IMG/VR virus record: IMGVR_UViG_3300026332_000001 | Location: 1 to 49,802 of that record | Strand: one strand, 5' to 3' | Length of the DNA stretch: 49,802 bases | Source of the DNA: a virus | Shown here: piece after piece, positions 17,840 through 20,127 of the stretch | Layout: each line of letters starts with the position of its first letter | Numbering within the stretch: the stretch's first letter is position 1 | The notes under the pieces: model-generated | What the model was told of the DNA's origin: nothing | The model's input: the letters and a program-made list of their open reading frames with translations, nothing else | The model's database searches: none | Made by a program: the position numbers and the translations under genes

Positions 17840-18266
17840 TATATGCCTCCATTTCATTAATTGTTGGTTCAGCTTTCAAAGCCTTCTTTGCAGTGGCTTT
17901 CTTAACTTCTTTTTGTTCGACGGGAGCAGCTTTAGCTGCAATTTCCATCTCAATACTCTTCAGACCTAGTTCATCGAAATAGTGTTTGCCACCATCTTTG
18001 AATGTGTAACCTGCCAGTACATAATTCTCAAGCAGCATCACGAAGTGCATTGGATCATAGTGCTCAACCATCCCAGAGGCTTCAGAAGAGATGATCACGC
18101 CTCCACGGGGCTCACCCTTGAATAGTCGCATTGTGTTGCCGTACAAGCCAAACTGAGGGTATCCAGCATTGCTGTTCTGTACGAGGTAGCCTTGTCCGAT
18201 GGCTTCACAGATGGCCTTGACGAAGACGATAGGATTATGCTCTACTACATCAACGTAGTCGGTCAT
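17832..18266 (-). CDS. Hypothetical protein, first gene of the leftward arm
   Basis: A 144-residue protein. The N-terminal about 100 residues are alpha/beta (FVKAICEAIGQGYLVQNSNAGY, HYDPMHFVMLLENYVLAGYTF), and the C-terminal 40 are a Lys/Ala-rich linker ending in an acidic tail. It is the first leftward gene after the promoter at 18297-18325, with CAGGGAG before the ATG, so it is likely among the earliest expressed. No family recognised. Confidence 0.7.
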   Translation of the reverse strand: MTDYVDVVEHNPIVFVKAICEAIGQGYLVQNSNAGYPQFGLYGNTMRLFKGEPRGGVIISSEASGMVEHYDPMHFVMLLENYVLAGYTFKDGGKHYFDELGLKSIEMEIAAKAAPVEQKEVKKATAKKALKAEPTINEMEAYND

Positions 18267-18296: not shown

Positions 18297-18325
18297 ATAG
18301 TAACACTGAGAATGTCCTATGTCAA
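18297..18325 (-). promoter_or_regulatory. Leftward early promoter
   Basis: TTGACA (18320-18325) and TACTAT (18297-18302), spacer 17, on the minus strand, about 30 bases ahead of the first leftward gene. It stands back to back with a rightward promoter 5 bases away. Confidence 0.8.
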
Positions 18326-18329
18326 TAGC

Positions 18330-18357
18330 TTGACAGAAAGAATTTATGTGTTAGTAT
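18330..18357 (+). promoter_or_regulatory. Rightward promoter
   Basis: TTGACA (18330-18335) and TAGTAT (18352-18357), spacer 16, on the plus strand. The extended -35 GCTTGACAGAA is shared with the promoters at 19376 and 20964. It would transcribe the structured region at 18361-18630 and the HNH gene. Confidence 0.75.
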
Positions 18358-18360
18358 GGG

Positions 18361-18630
18361 TCATCTGATGGAGAGATATGTCGATTCCACTCACCGGCCA
18401 TCAGGGAACACGCCTATGAAGAGGATGCTACTGGGCAAGCTGAGTCTAATCTGTTTAAAGCGTAGCGACGACACCGTAAGGTGGAATGAACAGAACCTGA
18501 GCGTAAAAGCTCTCCAGCACATGCTGGCCGAATGCAATCTCAATCTACGAGAGGCATAGAAGGTAGACCAAGGTTACGTCTTAGGCGATTAAATTCGTGT
18601 GGCGTTTCCTTGGGACGGTCTACCTTTCCG
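18361..18630 (+). ncRNA. Candidate structured RNA upstream of the HNH gene
   Basis: About 320 bases without a convincing gene follow a good promoter and hold a chain of perfect or near-perfect helices. These are CTGATGG (18365) / CCATCAG (18398); CACC-GTAA-GGTG with a GNRA loop (18472-18483); GAGC / GCTC (18499-18512); CCAGC-ACAT-GCTGG (18514-18527); ATGC..TCTC / GAGA..GCAT (18532-18557); and a long closing stem GGTAGACC (18562-18569) / GGTCTACC (18617-18624) with inner ACGTC / GGCGT pairs. ATTCCAC (18384) can also pair with GTGGAAT (18481), suggesting a pseudoknot or switch. A 67-codon frame crosses it but lacks a ribosome site. I do not recognise the family. Confidence 0.5.
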
Positions 18631-18682
18631 ATACAAAACTCATCTACGAGATAGATCAACAACCAATACAGGAACCAATAAG

Positions 18683-19171
18683 ATGAATATAAAAAGATTG
18701 AAGGAGGTGTTCTATGTAGATTACGAAAATGGATTACTGATTCGTAATGTGCGATGTGGAAGATTCCCTAAAGATAGTGCAGCAGGTTCATCCTCTGCTT
18801 ACAGTAAAGTCTATGTTGACAAAGAACACATCTATGTACACAAGGCAATATGGTCAATCCATCATGGGTATATTCCTGATGAAACCATTGATCACATTGA
18901 CACCAACACAACAAACAACAAAATTGGCAACCTACGCATTGCCACCAGAAGCCAACAGCAGCACAACACAGGCGTAAGGTCTACCAACTCTACAGGGGTT
19001 AAAGGGGTGAGCCTGTGTAAGCTCACAGGACTATATAGAGCAGAACTTAAACTGAATCATAAACGGGTCTTTGATAAAAGATTCAATACAATCGAAGAAG
19101 CTAAGGAAGCCTTGGACATTGCAAGGAGAGAATTTCATGGCGACTTCACCAATAATGGAGAAAAGCTATGA
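18683..19171 (+). CDS. HNH homing endonuclease with AP2 domain
   Basis: A 162-residue free-standing homing endonuclease. The N-terminal part ends in the HNH core: VHKAIWSIHHG (about 53-63), IDHIDTNTTNNKIGNLRIAT (about 71-90). It is followed by an AP2/ERF-like DNA-binding segment (STGVKGVSLCKLTGLYRAELKL and a KEALDIARREF helix). I start it at 18683; an upstream in-frame ATG at 18599 lies inside the structured RNA. Such genes invade phage genomes between functional modules. Its stop overlaps the next start (TATGAG). Confidence 0.85.
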   Translation: MNIKRLKEVFYVDYENGLLIRNVRCGRFPKDSAAGSSSAYSKVYVDKEHIYVHKAIWSIHHGYIPDETIDHIDTNTTNNKIGNLRIATRSQQQHNTGVRSTNSTGVKGVSLCKLTGLYRAELKLNHKRVFDKRFNTIEEAKEALDIARREFHGDFTNNGEKL

Positions 19172-19375: not shown

Positions 19376-19403
19376 TTGACAGAAGGTGCAATCATGTTAT
19401 ACT
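19376..19403 (+). promoter_or_regulatory. Promoter for the putative small terminase / tRNA array
   Basis: TTGACA (19376-19381) and TATACT (19398-19403), spacer 16, with the extended GCTTGACAGAA -35. It probably initiates the transcript carrying the gene at 19519 and the tRNAs beyond. Confidence 0.8.
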
Positions 19404-19495: not shown

Positions 19496-19518
19496 AATTA
19501 TTCAGAATGGAGAATAGC

Positions 19519-19840: not shown

Positions 19841-19916
19841 GGGACGCAGACCGATCGGTTTAGGTATCAGGCTTTTAACCTGAGTTTGCTTGGTTCGATT
19901 CCAAGGCGTCCCACCA
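19841..19916 (+). tRNA. tRNA-Lys(TTT)
   Basis: GGGACGC / GCGTCCC acceptor, anticodon loop CTTTTAA on a CAGG/CCTG stem, GGTTCGATTCC T-arm, encoded CCA. 76 bases; first gene of the array. Confidence 0.93.
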
Positions 19917-20011: not shown

Positions 20012-20127
20012 AGATGATGGGGTCGCAACCTATAAGAAAACGATGCTCTGTGAGGGTTCTGCGGAGTAACTTCTGGCTAATGTAGTCATCGGGGTACGAG
20101 TCCCCACAGGCAACCTTGAGAATTTAT
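20012..20127 (+). other. Spacer with tRNA T-arm-like relic
   Basis: No gene found. A GGGG-TACGAGT-CCCC arm at 20094-20108 resembles a T-arm, followed by ACAGGCAACC, but no matching 5-prime acceptor strand or anticodon arm is convincing. Probably a decayed tRNA. Confidence 0.35.

Follow-up and report, generated by a model that had tools for sequence, protein, structure and literature searches.

What lies behind the rightward promoter at the point where gene direction switches in an Otagovirus-like Pseudomonas phage was the question raised by this locus. The window, that is, the whole stretch of DNA analyzed, is a fragment of such a phage, the 49.8-kb record IMGVR_UViG_3300026332_000001. The original prediction was that two sigma-70-type promoters only 4 bases apart stand at the switch and that the rightward one leads into a candidate new structured RNA. 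Both sites were present, with 4 bases between their -35 boxes, and the pair was found to be conserved in relatives. The leftward site, TTGACA-17-TACTAT on the minus strand (18297 to 18325), is placed for the minus-strand genes, and its TGTCAA box is kept in relatives; the rightward site, TTGACA-16-TAGTAT on the plus strand (18330 to 18357), has a predicted start at approximately 18364. The leftward neighbors, all on the minus strand, were ClpP-like, PhoH, DUF7375, and one unknown gene, the outermost start among them being at 18266. Rightward, the order was promoter, RNA element, an HNH_3/AP2 endonuclease gene (PF13392; 18683 to 19171, plus strand), small genes, and tRNAs, of which ARAGORN detected 21 in the window, the first at 19841. 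The predicted HNH/AP2 and tRNA setting was accordingly correct for the window, with the endonuclease gene at 18683, and did not prove general: in most relatives genes other than HNH_3/AP2 come after the RNA element, and distant members lie beside other genes altogether. The endonuclease gene is an optional neighbor outside the conserved unit. Further along, a strong promoter-like site at 19376 to 19403 (TTGACA-16-TATACT, 11/12) precedes the tRNA cluster and a small gene at 19507, and a gap of 116 bases between two tRNA-Ser genes (20012 to 20127) ends in a tRNA-like stretch, GGGTACGAGTCCCCACAGGCAACC, that was not called as a tRNA by ARAGORN or Rfam.

Folded by itself, the window sequence was only modestly better than its shuffles (z = -2.05, with 8/200 shuffles equally good), and the argument therefore rests on comparison. 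The 2-kb region was matched by 184 GenBank phage records, every one except one named as a Pseudomonas phage, with homologous DNA in the genera Otagovirus, Flaumdravirus, and Pakpunavirus; the nearest relative of the window's element was found in phage Ep020, at 85.5% identity. In the relatives, the blocks GGAGAGATATGTC, CACTCACCGGCC, GAAGA, CTGA, and GGAATGA were conserved, and the intervening stretches varied in a base-pairing manner. Across 23 sequences, the 24 named core pairs showed standard pairing in 92.6% of cells, compared with 67.4% when shuffled, and a covariation score of 0.553, compared with 0.157. Two-sided changes were observed in 19/24 of these pairs, a count reached by 0/500 shuffles; such shuffle-based counts are inflated by the kinship of the phages, which was addressed with a slide control and with distant members. 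When the partners were moved by 1 to 3 columns, the covariation score was 0.14 or lower. With 55 members aligned to the model, 94.4% of cells were paired (59.0% when shuffled), the covariation score was 0.791 (0.190), and two-sided changes were found in 23/24 core pairs, although this alignment was fitted to the structure, which makes the 23-sequence test the cleaner of the two. In the 3' half, two-sided changes occurred in 16/32 predicted pairs. The structured stretch proposed behind the rightward promoter was thus borne out by covariation in relatives.

The element is about 290 bases long and was placed by comparative sequence at 18364 to 18655 on the plus strand, with an approximate 3' limit; the end originally given, 18630, fell short, since the element reaches about 18655. 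GNRA loops and a U-G pair that is conserved in P2 mark the plus strand as the RNA strand. A deeply conserved scaffold consists of P1, P2, and P3, after which come P4 to P7. P1 (18365 to 18404; 18365-18371 pairs with 18398-18404) encloses a conserved internal loop, AGAGAUAUGUC / CACUCACCGG, and its 7 pairs were formed in 98% of cells, 5 of them with two-sided changes and 2 invariant. P2 (18412 to 18436; 18412-18415 with 18433-18436) has GAAGA conserved in its loop and two-sided changes in 3/4 pairs, and P3 (18450 to 18494; 18450-18455 with 18489-18494) has such changes in 5/6 outer pairs. Inside P3, an inner hairpin (18472-18475 with 18480-18483) is capped by GUAA, and GGAAUGA is conserved at 18483-18489. 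P4 (18499-18502 with 18509-18512) and P5 (18514-18518 with 18523-18527) together span 18499 to 18527 and are followed by the P6 hairpin (18532 to 18557; 18532-18535 with 18554-18557 and 18538-18541 with 18549-18552). The large hairpin P7 extends from 18560 to 18626, with an outer helix of 18560-18569 and 18617-18626, and two-sided changes occurred in both its outer and its inner pairs. A pseudoknot between 18384-18390 and 18481-18487, also proposed originally, can form 7 bp in the window and was not kept in relatives, 35/37 of which have 0 to 4 pairs; judged by these sequences, it is a coincidence of the window only. The absence of a supported gene held as well: the 67-codon frame at 18356-18559 was open in the window only and was broken by stops and frame-changing indels in 17/17 aligned relatives. 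Hypothetical-protein calls overlie the RNA in several records (L003 to L027; VCM_00140, UGL61247.1, XYH45406.1), several of them on the opposite strand, and are probably spurious.

As anticipated, no RNA family could be named. At the gathering score, Rfam 15 returned tRNAs alone in the whole window and nothing in nine distant loci, the ROOL, GOLLD, group I intron, and tmRNA models being unmatched in both; a lax Rfam search gave one chance-level match (SCARNA18, 18.6 bits) and none in L108 and L043. ARAGORN detected no tRNA or tmRNA at 18364-18655 or in the nine distant loci, and a tRNA/tmRNA likeness suggested by the UCACCA end of distant members was rejected on that result. ROOL and GOLLD are also large structured phage RNAs of unknown function near tRNA clusters, but the element is only ∼290 nt long, occurs twice per genome, contains a duplicated variable sequence, and has many members away from tRNAs. 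The T4 stable RNAs C and D, likewise from a phage tRNA cluster and of unknown function, differ in that the T4 record gave no covariance-model match. A group I intron is improbable because the element lies between divergent or consecutive genes, interrupting none, in all loci read. The OMEGA guides of IscB/TnpB bear a resemblance only, in combining a scaffold with a variable segment that has a DNA copy beside the RNA gene; the matching tract of the element is just 7 to 14 nt, its loci are fixed, and IscB/TnpB were absent among the scanned neighbors (HNH_3/AP2, helicase, NinG, primase, and portal). The PAK_P3 transcriptome paper describes other sRNAs (PMC4933390). The sRNA1 and sRNA2 of PAK_P3 and the annotated sRNA1 of PAK_P4 (KC862299, KC862300) are likewise small RNAs of related Pseudomonas phages, encoded at the genome end that carries the tRNAs, but they measure about 80 to 135 nt and occupy other loci, PAK_P3 lacks the element family, and their similarity to the element was limited to chance matches of 7 to 11 nt. 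A literature search by core motifs and by topic, incomplete in coverage, found no paper on the element. The reading as a new structured RNA is supported by covariation in relatives, by the negative Rfam result, and by a reading frame that is not conserved, and we regard an independent structured noncoding RNA of a new family as very probably real.

Distribution was examined with a covariance model built on the P1-P3 core, the E values of which are rough. Exactly two copies, A and B, were found per phage record of ∼92 to 99 kb examined, and a single copy each in the partial JHP record and in two contigs of 35 and 60 kb. The family is present in PAK_P1, PAK_P2, PAK_P4, JG004, KIL3, and phiPsa374, and A and B occupy fixed orthologous positions in about 20 phages. 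The window contains A alone, B usually lying some 30 to 40 kb further along the genome, past the window end; the B copy of PAK_P4 is at L041 2545-2870, with an RNA ligase gene close by, and other B positions include W12:C1:28511 and W05:C1:59852. Neither this second copy per genome nor the duplicated variable sequence described below figured in the original prediction. The sole prior RNA annotation found for the family was a 13-base ncRNA feature, "sRNA," within the B copy of YS35 (MF974178.1, 39883-39895; L039 2654-2666). A first distant pattern scan gave 71 matches, of which the covariance model rejected about half as members. IMG/VR contigs, one Armatimonadetes-bin contig, and Vibrio breoganii phages yielded divergent members, which keep the scaffold and the repeat and have genes for a helicase, primase, NinG, portal, or homing endonuclease nearby. 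The idea of a partner gene common to all was rejected when the ORFs near 26 elements were clustered, as helicase, NinG, and primase recur in some distant phages only. The PAK_P3, FelixO1, and T4 records yielded no significant covariance-model match; in PAK_P3 (84225-84709; L198 40726-41210), a small CxxC gene is preceded by divergent promoters in a comparable location, and a simple hairpin takes the position occupied by the RNA in relatives.

Within P6, the element carries a variable sequence that is repeated behind P7. In the window, this is ATCTACGAGA, at 18543-18552 (copy 1) and 18642-18651 (copy 2) on the plus strand, the only exact copies in the record; copy 2 may fall outside the RNA because no terminator was identified at the 3' side of the element. 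The repeat is 7 to 14 bases long, is present twice per element, and varies between lineages, relatives having AGCGTCATGAG, AGTGTCATGAGA, ATCCGCAGAATACA, ATCCAGCAG, ATCCCCAAG, GTTTTGGATAG, AGCAGCACA, AGTCATATATT, TAGAGCAGT, CATCCGGCATTA, and others. The same placement was observed in most of 51 elements, with more than 25 clearly different sequences. Because the automatic search was free to take the best repeat over widely varying offsets, no individual case is strong, and the weight lies on the uniform location and on the diversity of the sequences. Five of the 51 elements were set aside because their best repeat was located elsewhere, among them L031 and L093, in which a repeat with mismatches is visible by eye; 43/46 scored elements reached a score that 5% of mismatched copy pairs attain. 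The A and B copies of one phage usually bear different repeat sequences, so that the match is required in cis, and at a given locus the repeat differs even among closely related phages. Single-base steps occur in both copies of the repeat, and near-matching copies (KIL3 A, L052, L068, and Vibrio 1.082.O) look like intermediates; a difference of one or two bases separates the copies in a few elements (L031 and Vibrio 1.082.O). To our knowledge, stepwise coevolution of two direct-repeat copies in one RNA gene is a feature of no described RNA class. In a distant subfamily (L046, L055, L076, L101, and L103), the corresponding segments appear complementary rather than identical, for example, GTGTAAGAATC and GATTCTTATAC in L076. 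Exchange of one P6 strand between the two copies fits some members and was rejected, as the shared part is the loop and not the stem in PAK_P2 B and others.

The reading that we favor, with a probability of roughly 0.75, is that the window element is the A copy of a new, independent structured phage RNA family whose P6 hairpin presents a repeated, lineage-specific sequence. Such independence has to be weighed against a cis-acting 5' leader of the rightward early operon, similar to a riboswitch, attenuator, or antitermination element, with no free RNA. The number of sigma-70-type sites, 6 found versus 5.3 expected, is by itself not above chance. However, the end of the -10 box lies 4 to 6 bases upstream of the RNA core for almost every A and B copy in the ∼90-kb phages, so that transcription is predicted to begin at the foot of P1; for KIL3 A, the simple promoter scan picked a different site. 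The B copies likewise carry back-to-back promoters, and the depositors of PAK_P4 marked the same divergent pair as putative promoters. The element appears to be transcribed from a sigma-70 promoter of its own, although the PAK_P4 record, in which sRNA1 is annotated from RNA-seq, has no ncRNA annotation at the locus, which counts against the favored reading. An early-type promoter start, with small genes following within about 30 to 100 nt in many phages, would suit a leader, as would the precedent of HK022-like phages, which carry two cis-acting put RNAs just behind their early promoters. The put RNAs resemble the element in being two structured RNAs per phage directly after early promoters, but the element is larger, has another structure, is conserved beside unrelated genes, and in distant phages has no sigma-70-type site directly upstream in the promoter scan. 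PAK_P2 B and JHP have an extra TTGACA-17-TAGAGT site right behind the element, and the gene that comes next is on the opposite strand in some distant phages, indicating that the element is not just a single gene's leader. Genes of unrelated kinds come after A, B, and the distant copies, and a matching direct repeat would not be expected of a leader; this explanation is considered unlikely.

The duplicated sequence could alternatively be one seed in two copies, in a loop and in a single-stranded tail, of a trans-acting regulatory RNA whose pairing target is an mRNA of the phage or the host. This is doubtful to a similar degree. The presence of the same sequence in both places fits, and JHP B (L018 1544-1810) has an additional ATCTGCAT within its P6 region, giving three copies in one element. 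Antisense matches to the seed, however, were not enriched in the phages' own genomes (eight phages; 3.7 9-mers versus 2.9 in other genomes), and a sequence that shifts between close relatives at one locus would hardly be expected of a conserved host target. Less probable still is that recombination or slippage around the large hairpin homogenized the copies, which would then be functionless in themselves. Slippage occurs readily at short direct repeats that flank a large hairpin, but template switching at an imperfect palindrome yields inverted, not direct, identity. In distant members, moreover, the flank 5' of the copies is fixed but different, GGCTCCG versus TCACCA, and a further fixed difference, CTCAA versus ACTC-A, accompanies a core that is alike, which argues against simple homogenization. 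A mobile or self-splicing element carried with HNH genes and akin to OMEGA guide RNAs or group I introns is very improbable. Endonucleases of the HNH/AP2 or another homing type are neighbors in the window, L043, L052, and L071, but most copies have no adjoining endonuclease, Rfam matches and gene interruption are absent, and the A and B positions are fixed.

For the favored reading, an independent RNA family, a mechanism can be outlined. The P6 hairpin presents the lineage-specific sequence of 7 to 14 nt that is repeated after P7, and the scaffold may be bound by a host or phage protein. The P6 sequence would act by base pairing, in which case one complementary strand must accept both copies; we put action through pairing of the duplicated sequence at somewhat less than an even chance. 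A complementary partner for the repeat was not found within the RNA (613, versus 641 ± 33 for swapped repeats). With no third complementary segment, the remaining candidate partners are the strand of DNA that faces copy 2, a trans-acting RNA that has a short seed, and a protein, the latter two of which would escape the partner searches made. The DNA strand is the single most likely of the possible partners, and is proposed tentatively, at low probability. Behind the RNA's own gene, the P6 loop would pair with the template strand of the DNA at copy 2 and could form an RNA anchor or an R-loop, for example, for a local replication start or transcription control. Pairing with the DNA template strand is favored over a trans RNA target met by two seeds because the match is cis specific, no complementary RNA partner was found, and the 5' flanks show a fixed difference; cis identity and exclusion are what point to this step. 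Both GC skew (in seven genomes) and gene direction switch at copy A. The skew is not proof of an origin, as gene direction turns there too, and the two are compatible with a role in replication without showing one. A self-addressed RNA, whose loop pairs with the DNA strand behind its own gene and so marks a fixed spot, two per genome, is quite unlikely; the marked spot would serve replication, recombination, or cutting, with address and reader evolving in step.

These data point to a new RNA family, with strong covariation support, in well-studied Pseudomonas phages, where apart from the YS35 feature it had not been annotated as RNA. The matching copies offer a clean test of function in which the match is broken and then restored. 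The presence of two copies per complete genome tested suggests that the RNA is important for phages that are used or proposed for therapy and crop protection.
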